A stretch of DNA of 26,364 nt from a virus, in the IMG/VR virus record IMGVR_UViG_3300031974_001096, positions 1-26,364 of that record; one strand, given 5' to 3'. Positions 1,855 through 26,364 of this stretch are shown piece after piece. Made by a program: the position numbers and the translations under genes. Below the pieces are notes generated by a model that saw only the letters and a program-made list of their open reading frames with translations, was not told the DNA's origin and made no database searches. Numbering within the stretch: position 1 is the stretch's first letter; the number at the start of each line of letters is the position of its first letter.

Positions 1855-1862
1855 CAAATGTA
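1855..1862 (-). promoter_or_regulatory. Bacteroidota-type -7 box upstream of scaffold and capsid genes
   Basis: On the minus strand this reads TACATTTG, matching the Bacteroidota -7 consensus TAnnTTTG. It lies 15 bases before the scaffold ATG at 1839, in the gap after the preceding gene. I see no clear TTTG -33 box at the usual distance, so this could be a phage-specific or chance match. Confidence 0.4.
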
Positions 1863-5620: not shown

Positions 5621-5826
5621 GTTACTTTGTTTTTAGCCAATAAGAGCTTGATTTCTTGTATGTCCTGTAAGAGCGTCTTGACGTCCTTTTTAAAGTCGCT
5701 ATTGTCGTTCTCCAAACCTTCTACCCTAGCCACGAGGCGGGCATAATCCATTTGATGTTTTATCCAGACCCCAACAAGCGATCCAGCAACAAGCAAAAAT
5801 TCAAAATGTGTTATGTTCTCAGGCAT
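5617..5826 (-). CDS. Membrane-anchored coiled-coil protein, holin-like candidate
   Basis: 69 residues if started at the ATG at 5826-5824, which forms a TGATG overlap with the upstream stop. An in-frame ATG four codons earlier (5838) is also possible. Residues 8-22 (FEFLLVAGSLVGVWI) form one hydrophobic segment. Residues 28-64 are a charged amphipathic helix with heptad-like Leu/Ile/Val spacing (ARLVARVEGLENDNSDFKKD, then VKTLLQDIQEIKLLL). One membrane helix plus a coiled coil is common for small phage holin or spanin-like proteins and for XhlA-type accessory proteins, which show the reverse order. The endolysin gene is far away (about 21 kb), so lysis is only a guess. A virion membrane-contact protein is an alternative. 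Confidence 0.6.
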   Translation of the reverse strand: MPENITHFEFLLVAGSLVGVWIKHQMDYARLVARVEGLENDNSDFKKDVKTLLQDIQEIKLLLAKNKVT

Positions 5827-6119
5827 CAGCAGTTCCATTTCCTCAGTGCAAGCGCCTTACGTGTCGGCTTGCCATTGGGCTTTCTCATAGGCCCTTTGAC
5901 ACCGCTCATTCTGGCGCAGAAGCTTTTTCTCCTCTTGGCTGCTTTGCTACCTTTCTTCAGCTTGGAAGGCTTGGTAGTGACTGCCATTTTAAGATTACTC
6001 CCCGTTTCTCTGTTGTATTTATCAACACCAGCCTGAGTCAAACCACCCTTGGGGTCTTTGTGCTTCCCCATTTTCAGTGAGACTCTTCCTCCTTTTTTGT
6101 AGGATTTACAGGCTTTCAT
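5826..6119 (-). CDS. DUF6321-like basic protein with KxGG tag
   Basis: 97 residues, very basic. It starts MKACKSYKKGGRVSLKMGKH, again with the YKKGGRV motif. It then shows 'GGLTQAGVDKYNRETGSNLK', a Lys-rich linker, and 'KRRKSFCARMSGVKGPM', ending ALRKWNC. The GGLT...KYNRETGSNLK, RRKSFCARMSG and ALRKWxC elements match what I remember as DUF6321, a small domain widespread in aquatic phages. The function is unknown, and a nucleic-acid-binding or head-internal protein is plausible given the charge. The ATG sits four bases after a TATATTTG box, so the message may be leaderless. The stop overlaps the next start (TGATG). Confidence 0.72.
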   Translation of the reverse strand: MKACKSYKKGGRVSLKMGKHKDPKGGLTQAGVDKYNRETGSNLKMAVTTKPSKLKKGSKAAKRRKSFCARMSGVKGPMRKPNGKPTRKALALRKWNC

Positions 6120-6123
6120 GTTA

Positions 6124-6131
6124 CAAATATA
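6124..6131 (-). promoter_or_regulatory. TATATTTG -7 box four bases before an ATG
   Basis: The minus strand reads TATATTTG, then TAAC, then the ATG at 6119. A -7 box here would place the transcription start at or next to the start codon. The same box-N4-ATG arrangement recurs at 19640, 24100 and 24165. Confidence 0.5.
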
Positions 6132-9100: not shown

Positions 9101-10607
9101 CTAAATCTTCCGCTGTAGACTTGTAAAAGAAGCACTCTTGACCTGGAAGCGAACCTGCGGGTCCAGTAGCTCCAGCGGGTCCAGTTGATCCTGCAGGCCC
9201 CGTAGGTCCGCCTGGAGTCCCTGGAGGGCCCTGCGGTCCAGTGGGACCTTGAGGTCCTGTCGGACCTGTGCCACCAGACACAAGCGGAGCTATACACACT
9301 CTTACTACATCCTGAGAAAACCCAGGGAATGAAGAGTTTGCGTCATTAGCAACGAGGTCTCCAAAAGTGTATGTGTAGTTACCGTCGTCAGCATTCAAAG
9401 TAGAGGTGATGCTCGTGGACACAAACGCCATATACCCACCCCCTTCTTGAATAACTTTGATGTATGCAGACCCGACAGCAAGAACAGAATCGAGTATTAG
9501 GCTATTATCTACAGAAGTGGTGTTAGTGAAGCTAGTCTGACCTCTCTGGTGCAGATATATATAGCTTGCGTCACCAAAGGAGCTACCTATTACTTCTCCC
9601 TCCCCAGTATTTTGATCGTCTCCATTTACTATAAGTGGGGTCAGGTTTATATCGTAAAAAGTGCAGACCTCACCAACATAGCTTCCTGTCGGTCCAGTGG
9701 GTCCAGTGGGTCCAGTGGGTCCCTGGTCACCTTGCGCCCCAGCAGCTCCAGTAGGTCCTGTCACTCCTGGGCGACCTACAGGTCCAGTGGGTCCCACATC
9801 ACCATCTCTTCCTGGATCTCCCGTAGGACCCGTCGGACCCCTATCTCCTTGTGGGCCGATTCCGCCTTGCGGTCCTGTCGGCCCTGGAGCAGTAGAAGCT
9901 GCTCCTGTAGGTCCTGCAGGCCCCGTAGGTCCAGCGGGGCCAGGGGCGGTAGATGCCGAACCAGTTGGTCCAGCGGGTCCAGTAGGTCCAGTAGGGCCTA
10001 TAGGTCCAGGAGCTGTAGAGTCAGCACCTGTAGGTCCAGCAGCACCTGTCGGACCTTGCGGACCCGTAGCTCCGTCTAATCCAGCAGAAAAGCAAGACCA
10101 TCCGCTACCAGTGTACACACATATTTCATCACCGATAATCCAAGCGTCTCCAGTAGCTGGATCAGCGACGGCTCCAGTGGATCCAGTAGCCCCAATAACT
10201 TCTAGACCAGTGCCTGCTGGCCCCTCAGGTCCAGTAGGTCCAGTAGGACCAGGGTCCCCGTCAAAACCTCTAGGTCCATCGGCACCATCCTGACCATCCT
10301 GACCGTCTACTCCGTCTTGACCGTCTGCACCTGGAGCTCCAGGAGCACCGTCAGCTCCAGAGGGGCCAGTAGGCCCAGCAGGCCCAGCGGGGCCAGCGGG
10401 GCCAGCAGGTCCAGCGGGACCTTGCGGGCCGAGAAGAACCCCCTCAAAGCTGCTTACATCAATGTACGTTGCTGGGTCTACAGAAACAATAGCAGAACAC
10501 AGGTCTTCCTCGATCGTTATTACGACCTGAGGGGAAGACGGACATTCAAGTTTTATTTCTATGGGGTCCGAAGAAGAAACATCTATGCAAGGGATGCAAT
10601 CTGACAT
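6162..10607 (-). CDS. Giant collagen-like modular virion protein (fibre or fibril)
   Basis: 1481 residues. The N-terminus (1-59) carries four Cys. Gly-X-Y blocks, mostly GPTGPxGP, occupy about 60-133, 179-309, 444-489, 826-858 and 1122-1139. Between them lie beta-rich modules of about 130-330 residues. Several begin with a Cys-aromatic segment (VCTFYDI, CFFYKS, CEQYYFL, LCFDIKN) and end with a VRVCIAP, YKICITP, FVICYYL or LICVTP strand. The C-terminal 340 residues hold repeats such as '[15 protein letters not shown]' and end [11 protein letters not shown]. Phage collagen-like segments form trimeric coiled stalks, so this is likely a trimeric tail or head fibre with globular domains on collagen stems. 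The ATG overlaps the upstream stop (TGATG). Which virion part carries it cannot be told. Confidence 0.8.
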
Positions 10608-10972
10608 CAGGGAAGGGTTACGTCTTCGTTTACTTTAAATGTGCCGTACAGATAAGTCTTTGTGGTGGTAAATCCAGTTGACTGAAGGTCATAGACGTAA
10701 AGACCAGAAGCCACGTCCATGGCGGTCGCAGTCTTTTGTATAGTAAGCTTACTTCCACTAAGGGCGATTTCACCACCAGAAAAGGTCAAAATAGAGGTGC
10801 CAGTAGCATTATCAGTGTCGCTTTCCCTAACCTCCATCTTCCATCCATCACTAGGAACAGTAGTCGTCCCAAAATCCAGAACCATATAAAAGGTGTCTCC
10901 CCTCCTGCATATGATATCTAGGCGGGAAGCAGTATCAAGGTTGATGGTGTTTTTAGTCGTGTTACTGCTCAT
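10607..10972 (-). CDS. Small beta-sandwich virion protein, 121 residues
   Basis: Starts [20 protein letters not shown], followed by '[20 protein letters not shown]' and '[16 protein letters not shown]', and ends with '[20 protein letters not shown]' and [13 protein letters not shown]. The RxGDTF...W.MEVR...[10 protein letters not shown]...[11 protein letters not shown] pattern resembles N-terminal attachment domains of baseplate or fibre proteins (BppU-like) and small phage proteins of the same fold. It overlaps the portal gene's last 11 bases and the collagen gene's ATG. Sitting between portal and fibre genes, it probably connects a fibre to the virion or is a minor structural protein. The assignment is by resemblance only. 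Confidence 0.6.
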
Positions 10973-13439
10973 TTTGACTGTTCAATGCTTGTTGTATTAT
11001 TTCGTCAGGAGAACTCTGCCCAGGAGCCGCTTGCTGAGCGGGTTCCTGTATTTCTCCTCTTTGACCTTGTCTTTGTGAGATAAGCTTGCTCTGATCGGCT
11101 GTCTGCTTCTTGACCCTATCGTCTTTTCTGTCTTCCTTGAAGACTTCCAGCTTCTCCCTAAACTCTTGATCGTCAGTCTTGAATCCGAGAGTAGCCTGCG
11201 CCTTAAGCATTTCAATCTCTTTTCTGTGCTCGTGACGCAAAACCTCCATCTGCGCTTCTAGCTGAGACTTAAGCTGCAGCGATTGTGCATCCAACTGAGC
11301 TTGCATCTGCATCTCTTGCTGCTTGGCTTGAGAAGCGGCCTGAGTGGACTGAATCTGTGCTTGGGACTGTGCCTGTACGTTCTGCTGAGCCATCTGCTGG
11401 TTTCTAGCCATACGCTTTTTTCTCCTCACAATCAGGAGGCGCTCGGCCTGGTTCACGTCCTTAAGCTGCCTAATAGCTATCGCGTCCTCTATATCGAGCT
11501 CCTTCTGAGCAAGCGAGGCCTGGATGTTTTGTTCCAAATACTGCTTTTCAATCTCTTCCATCTCCTTAACTACCGTAACCCCAAAGTTGTACATAGGGAG
11601 GTCGGAGAAGGTGTTGAGCAGGTTTATGTTCTCTTTTCCAATAGCGTTCTCATACGCTTTAAACAGAATACTTTCTCTAGGGATGACCTGAAGGCACTTA
11701 ACTATATCAGCGCACACCTTCTTGAACAGCACCATAGATGAGTTCGTAATATCGTAGATGGCGTTATTGCCAGCTGCGATGGCTTGCTGCCTAACCCCCA
11801 CGAGCTGGTCGCCTTTCGGGGTGGACGCATCCATAGCTTCGTTAATACCCGTAGCGTCACGTATCAGCCTCAAGTAGTGATTGTAGAGGTTGATGAACTC
11901 GTTGATGTTCCGTATGTTATTGCCGATTTCCCTGATGGGAGGATTCTGGAACCCGCCTTCAGGGTTTTTGCTTCTGTAGTAGAATACACCTGTCTGCTCG
12001 TAGATGTCATGGAGCTCCAGAGGCTGCAACTCCCCGCCTTTACCGAGCTGAACATTTTCGAGACCTTCGATATCAATGATGATGCCATCGGGCTTTGCTT
12101 TTGCGATTGCTTGCTGAATCTTCAAGTGCGTCAGCTGAAGCTGGTCGGCAAACCCGATGCAGCTATCTACCATCGATTTCGGGATATTACCATCAAGGTT
12201 AGTAGCAACAACACTGTAAGAGAGATTTGTGCGACTAAGGTCATGAGCGTTCTTAGGTACGTTCTTCTTTATCCCGTAGTTAAAAAGCTTATCGCACCCC
12301 ATAACGTAGCTACCCCCATACACAGTTACATTGGGGAGCCTGGTTACAGACCTCTTGTAGACAGAGTTACTGGGGGCTTTGTAGTTTTCTTCTTTCTGGT
12401 AGAAACCTACATTCCCATACCTGTTTTCTTTCTCCTCGAACACCATCATGTCGACAGAAAGAAACTCGAAATCCAAAACGTCAACCATATACTGATCATA
12501 CGCCCCACGGTTACTCCCCATGGTATTGTCATTCAAGTATGTTCTAACAGAAGTCGTGTCGTATTGATACCTCTTAGCTACGGTCTTGGCTATCTTATCG
12601 TACTCGTCGTCAGTAAACTGATCGCCAGCAATACGCTTCAACTCCTGCAAAGAGATCTTCTTTACGTGACCAGCGTACACTATATCCCCGAAGTTGGGGT
12701 CTTCAGTGTGGCTGTGTACGAAGTTCTTGGGGTCTACGTAGTCTACCTTTATACCGTAGTTCGGGTCGTTGCTCCTCTTGGTGACCGCCATACCCAGGGT
12801 GGCAATATCGTTTACACACCTCCTATAGGTAGAGTCGTTGAAGTCGTTCCACTTCAGGGTCATGTTGGTTGCCACCTGAGCAGCTACCTCTGATGCAGAC
12901 TTGATGTTTGCATCCATGAATATTTCGGCCTCCTCCAGCGACTCTGGTATCTCTTGGCCTTGAGACAGGTCAACACCGACCTTTTCTTTTATCTGTGAAA
13001 TTTTGTCCTTGTTCTCGACAAGCATCTTCACCCTGCGGCGCTCGGCATCTTTTTCAGATGATGATAGTGGATCGACAGCCTCAAGGTTTGGGTATGGTTC
13101 GCTAGAGAGAATCTTGTTGACTACGATCCTTACAAATTTCGGGAGGATGGGTACGGGCGTGAAGTCAAGGTTCAAGAAACTCCCGTCATTATTGCTGGGG
13201 TCCAAGCTGTTAAGGAGTTGCCTGTATATGCTCGTATCCTGAGTTCCGTTTGCGTAAGCCCTGTTGCGCTCGAACGTGCGGGCTCTTTTTTTATACAGGG
13301 AGTTATCCCTCTCAACAGCTCCCCATTGAGAAGAAATGGCCTTTGCATAAGAAAGGCCGTACTCCTTGCCTTCTTTATTTTCCTTACTCGCTAGTGGATC
13401 TGGAAAGCCTACGCTATTCTTCCCTTGCTTGCCGTACAT
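10962..13439 (-). CDS. Portal protein
   Basis: 825 residues. The portal ring sits at one head vertex and is the channel for DNA packaging and ejection. Residues 1-600 have portal texture: 'VPILPKFVRIVVNKILSSEP' near 92-111, a beta-rich clip/stem region, and 'GINEAMDASTPKGDQLVGVR' near 550-570. The last is a motif I associate with portals of crAss-like and other Bacteroidota phages. From about 630 to 790 follows a long Gln/Lys/Glu-rich coiled coil (MAQQNVQAQSQAQIQSTQAA and more), which could form the helical barrel inside the capsid. It directly follows TerL (21-base gap) and precedes fibre genes. A TATATTTG box lies seven bases before its ATG, so transcription may restart here. Confidence 0.85.
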   Translation of the reverse strand: MYGKQGKNSVGFPDPLASKENKEGKEYGLSYAKAISSQWGAVERDNSLYKKRARTFERNRAYANGTQDTSIYRQLLNSLDPSNNDGSFLNLDFTPVPILPKFVRIVVNKILSSEPYPNLEAVDPLSSSEKDAERRRVKMLVENKDKISQIKEKVGVDLSQGQEIPESLEEAEIFMDANIKSASEVAAQVATNMTLKWNDFNDSTYRRCVNDIATLGMAVTKRSNDPNYGIKVDYVDPKNFVHSHTEDPNFGDIVYAGHVKKISLQELKRIAGDQFTDDEYDKIAKTVAKRYQYDTTSVRTYLNDNTMGSNRGAYDQYMVDVLDFEFLSVDMMVFEEKENRYGNVGFYQKEENYKAPSNSVYKRSVTRLPNVTVYGGSYVMGCDKLFNYGIKKNVPKNAHDLSRTNLSYSVVATNLDGNIPKSMVDSCIGFADQLQLTHLKIQQAIAKAKPDGIIIDIEGLENVQLGKGGELQPLELHDIYEQTGVFYYRSKNPEGGFQNPPIREIGNNIRNINEFINLYNHYLRLIRDATGINEAMDASTPKGDQLVGVRQQAIAAGNNAIYDITNSSMVLFKKVCADIVKCLQVIPRESILFKAYENAIGKENINLLNTFSDLPMYNFGVTVVKEMEEIEKQYLEQNIQASLAQKELDIEDAIAIRQLKDVNQAERLLIVRRKKRMARNQQMAQQNVQAQSQAQIQSTQAASQAKQQEMQMQAQLDAQSLQLKSQLEAQMEVLRHEHRKEIEMLKAQATLGFKTDDQEFREKLEVFKEDRKDDRVKKQTADQSKLISQRQGQRGEIQEPAQQAAPGQSSPDEIIQQALNSQNEQ

Positions 13440-13446
13440 CTAACGG

Positions 13447-13454
13447 CAAATATA
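13447..13454 (-). promoter_or_regulatory. TATATTTG -7 box before the portal gene
   Basis: The minus strand reads TATATTTG seven bases before the portal ATG at 13439, inside the 21-base gap after TerL. It fits the Bacteroidota TAnnTTTG element. No convincing -33 box was seen. Confidence 0.4.
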
Positions 13455-16992: not shown

Positions 16993-17110
16993 ATTGCACG
17001 AAGGTATTCTTTTCCGAATGAATAGTATACGCTTCGCAATGACGAGGTGAGCAAGTGGAGCAGACCATGCCGATCAGGCACAACCCCATGAGTGTTATTC
17101 CCTTTCCCAT
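16970..17110 (-). CDS. Possible 46-residue hydrophobic-headed Cys-rich peptide overlapping tRNA-Arg
   Basis: An open frame starting at the ATG at 17110-17108, which overlaps the last codons of the lipoprotein gene. It reads MGKGITLMGLCLIGMVCSTC and ends inside the tRNA-Arg gene (stop at 16972-16970). The head looks like a short signal or lipoprotein signal sequence with several Cys, but no perfect lipobox (IGMVC, CSTC). Tight coupling to the upstream lipoprotein is suggestive of a two-component envelope or spanin-like pair. Running into a tRNA speaks against it, so it may be chance. Confidence 0.3.
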   Translation of the reverse strand: MGKGITLMGLCLIGMVCSTCSPRHCEAYTIHSEKNTFVQCPRSSAG

Positions 17111-17484
17111 GACAGAACTTTGTTTGACGTATCGACGTAGTCCATGAACATACTGTCGACTTTAGAATGATATAGATGAACCCTGTAGTAATACTCAGAT
17201 CCTTTGGATCCAGGTGTCGTCTGTATTACATACGGGTCTACTTTTACGCCAATCAAGTTGCTGTCTATGCTTAGAGTAGCAATGTAGTCGGGCTCCAGTG
17301 TAGCCCTGTACTCCTGCAGGAATATGGTGTCGAGATAGTTGTACGCTGGGACCTCTCTTTCTTTAAGGTCGGCCTCAAGGGATCTAGATACGCCAGCATA
17401 AGTACCGCAAGCACCAAGGCCAGCAGATACAAGAATAATCGAAAACAACCTCCATCCATTGAAGATGAACTTATCTTTTTCCAT
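17095..17484 (-). CDS. Putative lipoprotein, 129 residues
   Basis: Starts MEKDKFIFNGWRLFSIILVS with basic residues, then a hydrophobic core, then AGLGAC with a lipobox LGAC (Cys 26), so signal peptidase II cleavage and lipidation are expected. The mature part is about 104 residues: an amphipathic helix (SRSLEADLKEREVPAYNYLD) and a beta-rich remainder (DYIATLSIDSNLIGVKVDPY...YYYRVHLYHSKVD). It may act in the periplasm or at the outer membrane, for example in superinfection exclusion or as the outer-membrane part of a lysis complex. I recognise no family. It lies between two tRNA genes. A TACCTTTG box lies 14 bases upstream of its ATG. Confidence 0.7.
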   Translation of the reverse strand: MEKDKFIFNGWRLFSIILVSAGLGACGTYAGVSRSLEADLKEREVPAYNYLDTIFLQEYRATLEPDYIATLSIDSNLIGVKVDPYVIQTTPGSKGSEYYYRVHLYHSKVDSMFMDYVDTSNKVLSWERE

Positions 17485-17498
17485 TGACAGAATTTTCT

Positions 17499-17506
17499 CA
17501 AAGGTA
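17499..17506 (-). promoter_or_regulatory. TACCTTTG -7-like box before the lipoprotein gene
   Basis: The minus strand reads TACCTTTG (TAnnTTTG) 14 bases before the ATG at 17484 and just after the tRNA-Ile 3' end. No -33 box is evident, because that stretch is the tRNA T arm. Confidence 0.3.
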
Positions 17507-18549: not shown

Positions 18550-19081
18550 CAATTTTAATTCTGTAGTCCCTGTTCTTTTTGAAGCCAACCACGTCACCAT
18601 CGGATACTCCGAGGTCATCAAGCTCTTCGGATGGAAAGGATACCACACCTGTCGTTACTGGGTCCTCTTTCAGTTTGACGACTTCTATCGTGCCTTCTTC
18701 AGGTCCTTGATCATTTTTATCATGAGGCTCCAGCAGACACCAACCCTTGATTGACTGAATCTCTCCCGTATCCTTGCTCTTGTAGGCAATCGCTTGATTG
18801 TACGCCGCATGAATTGGGTTATAGATGACCATATACCACTTATCCAACTCGCTAATTGGCATACCACCGTCCACGACCACGTGGTGGTGAAAGTACAAAG
18901 TATCGCCAACCTTAACTGGAGTCTCCCTATTGCCTGGGACAGCCAGGACTTCACCTTCTGTAGTTCTGTGATCAAACTCATTGAATCTTGTGTCTATGTA
19001 CAGCTCTAACCCGCTGTCGGTTTTCATAGTGTCGTTGGTGGTGTTTTGTATCTTTACAATGAAGTTATTTATGGATTTCAT
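18497..19081 (-). CDS. GroES-like co-chaperonin, apparently double-domain
   Basis: 194 residues. Residues 5-70 align by eye with GroES: NFIVKI for the first strand, a loop, 'RTTEGEVLAVPGNRETPVKV', then GDTLYFHHHVV. Residues 130-194 look like a second Cpn10 half: EGTIEVVKL, PVTTGVVSFPSEE, then 'DGDVVGFKKNRDYRIKIDEK' and EYYRVAVTELLYKL, the last resembling the C-terminal GroES strand that ends DILAIV. A Trp/Tyr/His-rich insertion (80-125) separates them. A GroES caps the GroEL folding chamber. Phage versions such as T4 gp31 adapt the host chaperonin to fold the capsid protein. At twice the GroES length, it may be a fused or highly elaborated form. The start ATG lies three bases after the stop of the 78-residue gene. 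Confidence 0.65.
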   Translation of the reverse strand: MKSINNFIVKIQNTTNDTMKTDSGLELYIDTRFNEFDHRTTEGEVLAVPGNRETPVKVGDTLYFHHHVVVDGGMPISELDKWYMVIYNPIHAAYNQAIAYKSKDTGEIQSIKGWCLLEPHDKNDQGPEEGTIEVVKLKEDPVTTGVVSFPSEELDDLGVSDGDVVGFKKNRDYRIKIDEKEYYRVAVTELLYKL

Positions 19082-19084
19082 ATA

Positions 19085-19321
19085 TTAAAAATCTAGATCA
19101 AATTCGAGCATACATGGCATATCATCAATCACCTTCCAAAGGACAGTGCCCTCTTCATCTCCTGTGTACACTAGGTATCGGATCCTGCTGTACTTGTGCA
19201 AGTAGGCGTCGTCCTGTACGATAGCAGCTACCTTGCTATCGCCTACCCTCATACCCAAGAAGTAGGCCATCCCGTTCTTCGGGTCTTTCCCGATGACGAT
19301 TTTTCTTATAAGTCCACTCAT
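19085..19321 (-). CDS. Hypothetical phage protein, 78 residues
   Basis: Starts MSGLIRKIVIGKDPKNGMAY. The pattern IRKIVIGxDPKNGMAYFLGM...DDAYLHKYSRIRYLVY...EEGTVLWKVIDDMP looks like a conserved small beta-rich fold with an acidic C-terminal tail (CMLEFDLDF). I recall similar sequences in other Bacteroidota phages without function. Its ATG forms a TGATG overlap with the upstream gene's stop, and its own stop is three bases before the co-chaperonin ATG, so the three genes are co-translated. It could assist the chaperonin step, but that is only context. Confidence 0.75.
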   Translation of the reverse strand: MSGLIRKIVIGKDPKNGMAYFLGMRVGDSKVAAIVQDDAYLHKYSRIRYLVYTGDEEGTVLWKVIDDMPCMLEFDLDF

Positions 19322-19635
19322 CAGTTCAGCGATATCCCCATTCCTCCAAGCAAATCGTCGAGGTTGTCAGATTCATCCTGAAACTGACGGGTCATTATTT
19401 CTTTTATTACCTCCAGCTCATCGCTGCTATCCAGGTTGTAGCTAAACACGCTCTTAAGCTGAAGTTCGTCCCCTAACTCTGGGGTTCTTTCCTCGTCGTC
19501 CCAGTCTACGTCTAAGACTCCTATAAGCATAGCCGACATCACTCTATCTTCGTACTTGTACTTCTTGATCAACTCTTCAATTTGTACGATTAGAGAATAT
19601 ACCTCCGCTATAAATTCCTTGTCGGTGCTATTCAT
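19321..19635 (-). CDS. Hypothetical acidic phage protein, 104 residues
   Basis: Starts MNSTDKEFIAEVYSLIVQIE, a long N-terminal amphipathic helix, followed by an acidic middle (VDWDDEERTPELGDELQLKS) and a C-terminal helix with a Gly-rich end (DLLGGMGISLN). No known motif. It is the first gene of the minus-strand unit that runs into the co-chaperonin and MazG genes. Its ATG lies four bases after a TATCTTTG box, and only 19 bases separate it from the divergent winged-helix gene, which may regulate it. Confidence 0.7.
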   Translation of the reverse strand: MNSTDKEFIAEVYSLIVQIEELIKKYKYEDRVMSAMLIGVLDVDWDDEERTPELGDELQLKSVFSYNLDSSDELEVIKEIMTRQFQDESDNLDDLLGGMGISLN

Positions 19636-19639
19636 AATT

Positions 19640-19647
19640 CAAAGATA
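19640..19647 (-). promoter_or_regulatory. TATCTTTG -7 box four bases before an ATG
   Basis: The minus strand reads TATCTTTG, then AATT, then the ATG at 19635. It matches TAnnTTTG with the same N4 spacing as at 6124, 24100 and 24165. It overlaps the 19-base divergent gap shared with the plus-strand regulator. Confidence 0.5.
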
Positions 19648-19654
19648 AGTATTA

Positions 19655-20074
19655 ATGCCAAAGTCTAGAGTTTCCAAAAAACGCATGTTCCGTGACTTCT
19701 CCTTCCTCAAGGAGGTCTACGTATCGAACAATGGATTGAAGAACCTGCACCGTGTCCGTAAAAATTTTTGCGATTCTAACGAAGTCTCGTTCAGTCACCT
19801 AGAGTTTCTATTGTGGTGCTACGACCTAGAGTTCTTTACTATATCGTATGCCTCAGAGGAATACGGGATGAACCATGACAACCTAGCCAACAGGGTCATA
19901 TACCCCCTTATGAAGCAAGGGTATCTGTACAAGCACTTCGACAAGCTTACCCCTTCAGCAGAGCTTGAAGATCATCTTTTCAGGGATGAAACCAAATACA
20001 ACTATAGGGTTAGATATGCTCTAACTCAGAAAGGTCGGCTCCTGGTTCAACGATTTTATCGGTCTTTAGACTAA
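19655..20074 (+). CDS. Winged-helix transcriptional regulator-like protein
   Basis: 139 residues, the only plus-strand gene within 24 kb of minus-strand genes. Residues 45-75 (SHLEFLLWCYDLEFFTISYA) and 76-98 (EYGMNHDNLANRVIYPLMKQ) form helix-turn-helix-like segments. The C-terminal 'YRVRYALTQKGRLLVQRFYR' reads as the wing and dimer helix of MarR/PadR-like winged helices. I recall closely similar proteins in many Bacteroidota phages. The start (MPKSRVSKKRMFRDF) lies 19 bases from the divergent minus gene. The 3' end overlaps the convergent glycosyltransferase gene by 65 bases. It probably binds the divergent gap and controls flanking late genes, an inference from position. Confidence 0.7.
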   Translation: MPKSRVSKKRMFRDFSFLKEVYVSNNGLKNLHRVRKNFCDSNEVSFSHLEFLLWCYDLEFFTISYASEEYGMNHDNLANRVIYPLMKQGYLYKHFDKLTPSAELEDHLFRDETKYNYRVRYALTQKGRLLVQRFYRSLD

Positions 20075-23086: not shown

Positions 23087-23394
23087 TAGTACTTCGGGAT
23101 TCGGTATTTAGTTTTCTTCTTGTCCTTCTTCACGAGCGCCTCTCCGCTGCTGTAATCCATCTTCTTCTTGTCGCTGATCTTCTTGATCGGGGTGTCTTTA
23201 CTCCCTCTAGCTTTGAATTTGGTTACAGACGTGTTTCCTCGCTTACGCTTGGTGATCAGCTTGCCTTCTACAGGGTAGGTCTCACGATCCACCTCTACAT
23301 CAAACTGACCCTTCTCTACGTACCTTCTATTATCCTGTCGCTTTTGCTTCCTGGATACCTTCCCCCCGTCTTTGTAGGACTTCTTAGCTCTCAT
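23086..23394 (-). CDS. Basic KxGG-tag protein, 102 residues
   Basis: Starts MRAKKSYKDGGKVSRKQKRQ, the YKDGGKV form of the shared N-terminal motif. The rest is Lys/Arg/Asp-rich, with 'VEVDRETYPVEGKLITKRKR' that could form a short beta hairpin, then 'GSKDTPIKKISDKKKMDYSS', and ends KTKYRIPKY. No known domain. It overlaps the upstream gene by ATGA and the downstream paralogue by TAATG. It may bind DNA or RNA, or be carried in the capsid. Confidence 0.65.
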   Translation of the reverse strand: MRAKKSYKDGGKVSRKQKRQDNRRYVEKGQFDVEVDRETYPVEGKLITKRKRGNTSVTKFKARGSKDTPIKKISDKKKMDYSSGEALVKKDKKKTKYRIPKY

Positions 23395-24095
23395 GCCCTC
23401 CTACCGCTTCTCCTAGCTTGACGCCTTTCTCTGCGGACGTCCTTCCTAGTAGCTCCTTGAGCGACAACCTTACCGCCGTCCTTCATCTCCTTATTGGGCT
23501 CTTTGTAGTGCTTACCCATACCACCCTTAATAGCCCTGTGTGCTGCGGCGCCACTAATCTTTCTGGTCTTTTCCTTGGTCTTACCGCCCATCGTCCTCTT
23601 CTTTTTCGTTACGGTTCCAGAACCCTCATCGTAAGTGGTGGTTTTGGACTTGTAAGTGTTGTTTTTGGCGCCACCACGGACCTTGTCCTTTGTCAAAGAC
23701 CTTGTGTTACCCGCAAGGCCTTCTTGCTGATAAGTCTTGGATTTGTTTGTGTTTCTTTTGTCAATGCGCTTACCGTAAATCTTACCGCCGTTTTCCATCC
23801 TTACGATCGTATCGGCAGCTCCCTTATTCCTAAGCTTGGTTACAGTACCGTCCTTTTTGGTTACGGTCTTTGACTTCCCAGTAGCGCTTCTTGTCGTTTC
23901 TACCGTTCGGCCAAACCTCTTCTTGTTCTTAACAGTTGCGTCCTTTCCTTCTCCGAAGGGGTTAGATACGTATCTCTTTGTTTTGTTCTGACCGAGAAGA
24001 CCTCCAGACTTGGTTTTACCTGAGGCGTCTACAGTTTTTTCCCTCCTGGAAAGAGGTGAGGATGATTTGTATCTGAGTTTCTTGAGTGCTTTCAT
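23391..24095 (-). CDS. Very basic Lys/Thr/Gly-rich protein, 234 residues
   Basis: Started at the ATG at 24095-24093 (MKALKKLRYKSSSPLSRREK). An upstream frame to 24113 lacks a good start and would run through the -7 box. The protein is low-complexity and strongly basic, with repeated KTKSGG, TVTKKDGTVTK, RMENGGKIYGKR and MKDGGKVVAQ-type segments, and it ends in an Arg run (RKDVRRERRQARRSGRRA). GGKI and GGKV are internal copies of the KxGG theme. Such composition fits a nucleic-acid-condensing or head-internal protein. It is the first substantial gene of the minus-strand block and has a TATATTTG box four bases before its ATG. Confidence 0.68.
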   Translation of the reverse strand: MKALKKLRYKSSSPLSRREKTVDASGKTKSGGLLGQNKTKRYVSNPFGEGKDATVKNKKRFGRTVETTRSATGKSKTVTKKDGTVTKLRNKGAADTIVRMENGGKIYGKRIDKRNTNKSKTYQQEGLAGNTRSLTKDKVRGGAKNNTYKSKTTTYDEGSGTVTKKKRTMGGKTKEKTRKISGAAAHRAIKGGMGKHYKEPNKEMKDGGKVVAQGATRKDVRRERRQARRSGRRA

Positions 24096-24099
24096 GTCA

Positions 24100-24107
24100 C
24101 AAATATA
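24100..24107 (-). promoter_or_regulatory. TATATTTG -7 box four bases before the 24095 ATG
   Basis: The minus strand reads TATATTTG, TGAC, ATG. It is the putative head promoter of the block 24095 to 20010. The next box and ATG upstream (24165) repeat the design 65 bases away. Confidence 0.55.
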
Positions 24108-24115
24108 TACCAATA

Positions 24116-24160
24116 TTATCTTTTGCCACTGACTCTGTTTCTTCTCTTTTTAGGCTTCAT
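24116..24160 (-). CDS. 14-residue basic micro-ORF
   Basis: Reads MKPKKRRNRVSGKR then TAA, starting at the ATG at 24160-24158, four bases after a TATATTTG box, exactly the arrangement seen before three larger genes. It ends eight bases before the next -7 box. Eight of 14 residues are Lys or Arg, and it opens with MKPxKK like the KxGG protein at 2273. It could be a real micropeptide, a leader peptide, or a decayed copy of a small basic gene. No homology can be expected at this length. Confidence 0.4.
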   Translation of the reverse strand: MKPKKRRNRVSGKR

Positions 24161-24164
24161 GACG

Positions 24165-24172
24165 CAAATATA
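24165..24172 (-). promoter_or_regulatory. TATATTTG -7 box before the micro-ORF
   Basis: The minus strand reads TATATTTG, CGTC, ATG. It is the outermost minus-strand promoter element next to the divergent intergenic region. A TTTG (24200-24203) lies 26-27 bases upstream, a longer spacing than usual for a -33 box, so I do not count it. Confidence 0.45.
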
Positions 24173-24334
24173 AGAAGACAGTCTTTGCGCCTACACAGCA
24201 AACAGCTTCCTGACTCCCTCTCCAACTAAAAAAACCCTTCTTGGAAGCTTCCCGCAACTCGGCTGTCCACTGACCCGCTGAGCTGCAGGGCGAAGTTACA
24301 GGATATTTCTGACATATGCAAGTCTTGAAGTAGA

Positions 24335-26261: not shown

Positions 26262-26275
26262 TACCCTAAAGGGTA
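26262..26275. repeat. Inverted repeat TACCCT-AA-AGGGTA
   Basis: Two bases after the stop of the small membrane protein gene. On RNA it forms ACCC-UAAA-GGGU, the same stem as the ACCC-UUCG-GGGU hairpin at 25720. The following bases are A-rich, so it is not a classic U-run terminator. Confidence 0.4.
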
Positions 26276-26285
26276 AGAAAATAAA

Positions 26286-26318
26286 TTTGGAAAAGTGGGA
26301 AAGTTGTGCTTAACTTTG
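26286..26318 (+). promoter_or_regulatory. Bacteroidota-type promoter for genes beyond the window
   Basis: TTTG at 26286-26289 and TAACTTTG at 26311-26318, 21 bases apart. The leader runs to the window end with ATCAAAACACTCACA, so a start codon is expected just outside. Confidence 0.65.
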
Positions 26319-26364
26319 CAGAGCCAACGGCAACCGACCCACGGCACACATCAAAACACTCACA

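Follow-up and report, generated by a model that had tools for sequence, protein, structure and literature searches.

The TAnnTTTG box and its placement in the window

Can a phage start the transcription of its late genes at their start codons? The question is raised by a 26.4-kb virus record, IMGVR_UViG_3300031974_001096 (26,364 nt; hereafter the window), on whose minus strand several ATG codons stand at a short, fixed distance from a TAnnTTTG box. This strand encodes the portal protein (phrog_6547), the large terminase (phrog_6681), and further late-type genes. "Late" refers to gene content throughout; in longer relatives, the late-type strand carries the virion proteins, and the opposite strand carries ribonucleotide reductase, primase/helicase, and exonuclease. 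Judging from its homologous portal and large terminase, the window phage is a distant relative of the flavobacterial elemo and Pervagoviridae phages. The best named cultured matches to the two proteins showed approximately 30-41% identity; the portal is homologous to those of Flavobacterium elemo phages and Cellulophaga phi38:1 (Pervagoviridae) (30-32% identity), and the terminase to those of the elemo phages and Maribacter Panino (approximately 41%). The phages that share the arrangement described here form a widespread, uncultured group, the hosts of which are probably Bacteroidota.

An initial annotation had pointed out four minus-strand sites at which a TAnnTTTG box, exactly four bases, and ATG follow one another, and all four were present as described. 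We denote by k the number of bases between the box and the ATG. At the first late promoter, the -7 box TATATTTG (24165..24172, -) is followed by CGTC and the ATG at 24160-24158, and a homologous box occupies the same place in six relatives. At this site (24172-24158), the box-N4-ATG arrangement held up, but the ORF that starts with the ATG at 24160 is just 14 codons long (MKPKKRRNRVSGKR, a basic, predicted leaderless ORF at 24116..24160, -); relatives carry genes of 66-328 codons here. The 14-codon ORF, possibly a remnant or a leader peptide, is the only one from the first late promoter to the next. That next promoter, 65 nt away, has the -7 box TATATTTG at 24100..24107 (-), and TGAC separates it from the ATG at 24095 of a predicted leaderless gene for a basic 234-aa protein without family match (23391..24095, -). 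A third box, TATCTTTG at 19640..19647 (-), precedes by AATT the ATG at 19635 of a predicted leaderless gene for a 104-aa protein of the MNSTDKEF family (19321..19635, -), whose orthologues keep the box at k = 4-5 and vary most at third codon positions. The fourth, TATATTTG at 6124..6131 (-), is joined by TAAC to the ATG at 6119 of a predicted leaderless gene for a 97-aa DUF6321 (PF19846) protein (5826..6119, -), with k = 4 or 5 in the orthologues. Two more late promoters, with the -7 boxes TACCTTTG (17499..17506, -) and TACATTTG (1855..1862, -; k = 14-18 in relatives), lie 14 nt before the ATG of 17095-17484 and 15 nt before that of 775-1839, respectively, and because of this distance, the genes behind them are predicted to have leaders, of about 10 nt.

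The window contains five matches to TAnnTTTG-N4-ATG where chance would give 0.19, and the count stayed below five in all of 100 shuffles. By itself, the box is not enriched (18 occurrences, 15.1 expected), so the signal lies in its placement before ATG. The fifth match, at 9452-9466 (+), is antisense within a collagen-like gene, opens 20 codons, and is taken as chance. An excess over shuffled sequences had been predicted for the genome-wide count as well, and it was found: across the window and ten long relatives, the late strand has 48 matches, whereas shuffling gave 2.2 on average and 6 at most. Most late genes have no box and must be expressed through read-through.

Conservation among related phages

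Two scans of viral contigs yielded 148 loci, and ten long contigs were read in their entirety; because the loci were picked via portal and terminase, the sample is centred on relatives of the window. The single genome scan gave one match, in a Kiritimatiellaceae MAG: its contig NZGU01000008.1 ends in 228 bases that encode a portal fragment 93% identical to that of the window; this is possibly a phage or chimeric contig assigned to the wrong genome.

For a wider count, we used 98 dereplicated contigs (the window and relatives, 1.59 Mb). TAnnTTTG-N4-ATG occurs 117 times on their late strand versus 5 times on the other, TATATTTG occurs 292 versus 13 times, and none of the other spacings stands out as strongly as k = 4. 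The arrangement is thus a trait of the phage lineage. In an unbiased count, TATATTTG was the commonest 8-mer at k = 4 and near absent at control spacings. Nearly all of the k = 4 matches (113 of 117) read TAHHTTTG and open an ORF of at least 40 codons, and the 105 unique sites comprise TATATTTG (86), TATCTTTG (18), and TAACTTTG (1); the two variable positions of the box are without G, as in the Bacteroidota -7 element. Among 82 families with a box within 40 nt of the ORF start, single-sequence families included, 38 have a member with k = 4, while the next best spacing is found in 12. The k = 4 families include a virion structural protein (phrog_14543), DUF6321, and many small basic proteins. 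The control pattern TA..TTTC-N4-ATG, with 52 matches, was rejected as a promoter; it mostly represents a conserved coding string, TATGTTTCTNCA, and its ATG opens only 2 codons.

Predicted position of the transcription start

Bacterial RNA polymerase prefers a pyrimidine at -1 and a purine at +1, and leaderless translation has a strong preference for AUG. Both signatures were found at the k = 4 sites. The base before the ATG is a pyrimidine at 101 of the 105 unique sites, compared with 52 of 107 leadered sites (Fisher p = 4e-16), and at 37 of 38 when one site per family is kept. At leadered sites, the fifth base after the box, which lies at the same distance as the A of the ATG at k = 4, is a purine in 85% of cases. 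The codon after TATATTTG- or TATCTTTG-N4 is ATG in 116 cases, GTG and TTG in one each, and CTG in none, a near-exclusive AUG start as expected of leaderless mRNA. In Flavobacterium johnsoniae, the box spans -12 to -5, with 4 or 5 nt from the box to the transcription start (PMC6847099), and this distance predicts that +1 at the N4 sites is the A of the ATG.

In one virion gene family (11 genomes), a terminator hairpin with its T-run reaches exactly to the box, and the hairpin still forms although the letters of its stem vary among these genomes. Because the terminator ends at the box, there is little room for a longer leader in this family. Upstream of the 113 k = 4 ORFs, in-frame start codons are absent in 84 cases, only GTG or TTG in 26, and ATG in one, with two ORFs running off the contig end; translation of 26 of the 113 could thus start from an upstream in-frame GTG or TTG. 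Over the first 20 codons, homologues differ mainly at third codon positions, and the frame is therefore translated from near the k = 4 ATG. Box placement and spacing, conservation over many families and genomes, the initiator (-1 pyrimidine) and start-codon (ATG) signatures, the abutting terminator, and the lineage-wide pattern all support the earlier proposal that initiation takes place at or next to the start codon, and leaderless late genes transcribed from a Bacteroidota-type -7 box are the best-fitting reading of these sequences.

We assign a probability of about 0.82 to the reading that the sites are TAHHTTTG (-7) late promoters at which a Bacteroidota host's RNA polymerase, with its primary sigma factor, starts leaderless mRNAs. 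With the box at -12 to -5 and four bases behind it, +1 would fall on the A of the ATG; some of the late genes would give leaderless mRNAs beginning 5'-AUG, and the portal gene would give an mRNA with a leader of 2-3 nt. Host ribosomes would need to accept a 5'-terminal AUG without upstream contacts. Genes without an intervening terminator are probably transcribed from upstream promoters as well, and the leaderless RNA would come in addition; at a box abutted by a terminator, the leaderless RNA should predominate. What we infer from these features is where exactly the 5' end lies, when the genes are transcribed, that the leaderless form is translated, and which polymerase reads the box.

Reading of the box

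A search of the eleven phage records for a sigma region 2 domain found none. A phage sigma factor was accordingly rejected as the reader, and this result makes host RNA polymerase the likely one; together with its primary sigma factor, it would be the simplest reader. As in F. johnsoniae, the box is immediately preceded by an A+T-rich patch, and beyond this patch, we saw no upstream element shared over all k = 4 sites. The initial annotation had noted the lack of a clear -33 box, which we confirmed, and had suggested that an extended -7 or a phage factor may be used. TTTG at a gap of 17-23, corresponding to the -33 element, occurs at 3 of the 105 leaderless sites and at 5 of the 107 leadered ones, so we assign the promoters to the -7 kind and not to the full -33/-7 class. 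A -33 TTTG has been reported for Bacteroides and is much less evident in F. johnsoniae (PMC6847099). Since it is equally absent from the leadered promoters of the phages and weak in F. johnsoniae, its absence is no argument for a phage factor.

A phage regulator is nevertheless conceivable, because a protein with a MarR-like model is encoded beside one of the sites. This conserved 139-aa protein (19655..20074, +), a candidate regulator with a predicted winged-helix fold, is encoded within the late cluster on the opposite strand, is divergent from the leaderless gene at 19635 (-), with 19 bp between the two start codons, and is kept in approximately 50 contigs. Its model (pLDDT 75, pTM 0.63) gave a best PDB match with Z 12.6 and rmsd 2.9 over 102 residues, with Foldseek E-values of only about 2e-3, and the protein had no significant Pfam, PDB-sequence, or cultured-phage match. 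In one relative (G007), the homologue has TATCTTTG-N4-ATG at its own start. Such a protein might redirect the host polymerase to these boxes without a -33 contact, the transcripts being leaderless all the same. The missing -33 box, the protein's wide conservation and its position next to a site, and, ahead of the first late promoter, a conserved control region (24173..24330, -) with CTGTAACTTCGC and GGCGCAA invariant in an alignment of 7 genomes would fit such a redirection. We consider it unlikely, however, given that the -33 element is weak in normal F. johnsoniae promoters and lacking in the leadered promoters of the same phages, that the k = 4 sites have no common upstream element apart from A+T-richness, and that MarR-like proteins are usually repressors.

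The reverse strand of the control region carries TATTTTTG-N4-ATG with tiny ORFs in two relatives (G001 and G002) and a degenerate TATTTCTG in the window; because of the arrangement in G001 and G002, the region may fire both ways.

Read-through transcripts and the portal gene

The reading as host-read leaderless promoters has also to be weighed against a division of labour in which the boxes are promoters but most protein comes from longer read-through transcripts, the short-leader RNAs being minor or regulatory. Genes are densely packed, many boxes lie within 20 nt of the end of the upstream ORF, and a mere 65 nt separate the promoters at 24172 and 24107. This alternative is about as improbable as a redirected polymerase: the ATG, the pyrimidine at -1, and the exact spacing are all conserved although read-through would not require it, and in the virion family of 11 genomes, a terminator ends at the box.

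The portal gene is informative about the role of the box in another way. As had been claimed, its -7 box (13447..13454, -) lies seven bases from the ATG (TATATTTG-CCGTTAG-ATG), and the portal gene (10962..13439, -) is predicted to be near-leaderless, with a leader of approximately 2-3 nt. Among the relatives, the position of the box after the terminase (TerL) gene is constant and the distance to the ATG moves, being 5-7 nt in one group (36 sequences) and 19-32 nt in the other 43. In a quick tree based on the portal sequences, a single change of this distance is needed (support 98), and the gene thus offers one clean evolutionary switch of leader type while its promoter otherwise stays the same. 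In many of the phages whose portal gene is leadered (L099, L119, L120, and others), the 28-32 nt leader contains an inverted repeat, GAGTTA..TAACTC, a possible 5' hairpin.

If TAnnTTTG-N4-ATG acted on the mRNA, as a signal for translation initiation rather than as a promoter, the fixed spacing to ATG at many sites would be explained, but the same box would hardly serve orthologous portal genes at such different distances from the ATG, have the letters of the known -7 element, or directly follow a terminator. The fixed portal box with its differing ATG distance led us to reject a translation signal as a very improbable candidate. A chance arrangement in an A+T-rich phage, with which the unremarkable number of boxes in the window and its one antisense match in five would agree, has a negligible probability and is refuted by the counts (5 vs 0.19 expected, 48 vs 2.2, and 117 vs 5 between strands).

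Comparison with hosts and known systems

Like the promoters of the Bacteroidota primary sigma factor (sigma-ABfr), the phage promoters have the -7 box with H at its two variable positions, an A+T-rich patch upstream, and, at many leadered sites, a pyrimidine-purine step 4 nt past the box. They differ in the missing -33 TTTG and in the ATG found at the predicted +1 of many phage genes. To our knowledge, Bacteroidota have no Shine-Dalgarno sites. Published transcription start-site maps served as the host baseline: 87% of predicted transcripts of F. johnsoniae have leaders longer than 10 nt (PMC6847099), 5.5% of the mRNAs of F. psychrophilum are leaderless, and 3.7% of the 5' UTRs of B. thetaiotaomicron are shorter than 10 nt. 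A survey found leaderless signals in one of 37 Bacteroidetes/Chlorobi genomes (2.4% in that one), in a search restricted to Pribnow-like boxes (PMC3160421). As the hosts studied make few leaderless mRNAs, their ribosomes are not known to favour them, and with no Shine-Dalgarno sites and few leaderless mRNAs measured, the choice of start codons by Bacteroidota ribosomes is still being worked out. The virion genes of this widespread phage lineage, which seemingly need initiation at a 5'-terminal AUG, provide a natural experiment on how well leaderless mRNA is accepted by these ribosomes.

In the leaderless genes of Actinobacteria and similar bacteria, a -10 box lies approximately 10 nt before the start codon. 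The phage sites resemble those of Actinobacteria (survey PMC3160421) in the short, fixed distance from promoter box to start codon, a likeness by description, and differ in having the Bacteroidota -7 element as their box and in being a trait of phages. Leaderless late phage mRNA is already known from Thermus phage phiYS40, most of whose middle and late transcripts are leaderless (review PMC3594737); the version predicted here for Bacteroidota phages would be new. The transcripts of phiYS40 come from another promoter in another host phylum, Deinococcus-Thermus, which is rich in leaderless genes (an average of 39% predicted; PMC3160421), and we claim no shared genes. A literature search covering few subscription journals returned no paper on leaderless transcription in Bacteroidota phages or on promoters of crAss-like relatives.

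Unlike in the window phage and its relatives, the boxes of its cultured relatives and of more remote phages, namely elemoF, phi38:1, Panino, phi14:2, and crAss001, are mostly leadered in the 50 kb read of each. Two k = 4 sites stand ahead of annotated genes in elemoF, and none was found in phi38:1 or Panino within the same length. The two sites of the elemo phages, whose host is Flavobacterium sp. BAL314, read TACCTTTG-CTAT-ATG (position 18956 of NC_055853) and TATCTTTG-CAAT-ATG (position 46302). We tentatively suggest, as a speculation that is more doubtful than not, that leaderless mRNA has become a programmed strategy for many late genes in a large lineage of Bacteroidota phages, perhaps together with phage-altered host ribosomes or initiation factors that favour a 5'-terminal AUG late in infection. 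If true, this strategy would operate in a phylum without Shine-Dalgarno sites and, as far as is known, with little leaderless mRNA. In uncultured phage genomes, box-N4-ATG provides a sequence rule that fixes promoters and start codons together.

Other elements of the window

An Rfam search gave two tRNAs and nothing else. A sigma-70 style promoter scan showed no excess (7 vs 9.3), and a search for a common early-strand promoter motif gave none as clear as the late box. On the plus strand, the element ACCCTAAAGGGTAAGAAA..TTTGGAA...GTGCTTAACTT at 26263-26320 is kept wholly or partly on the early strand of four relatives (G001, G004, G005, and G006) and is a possible early promoter.
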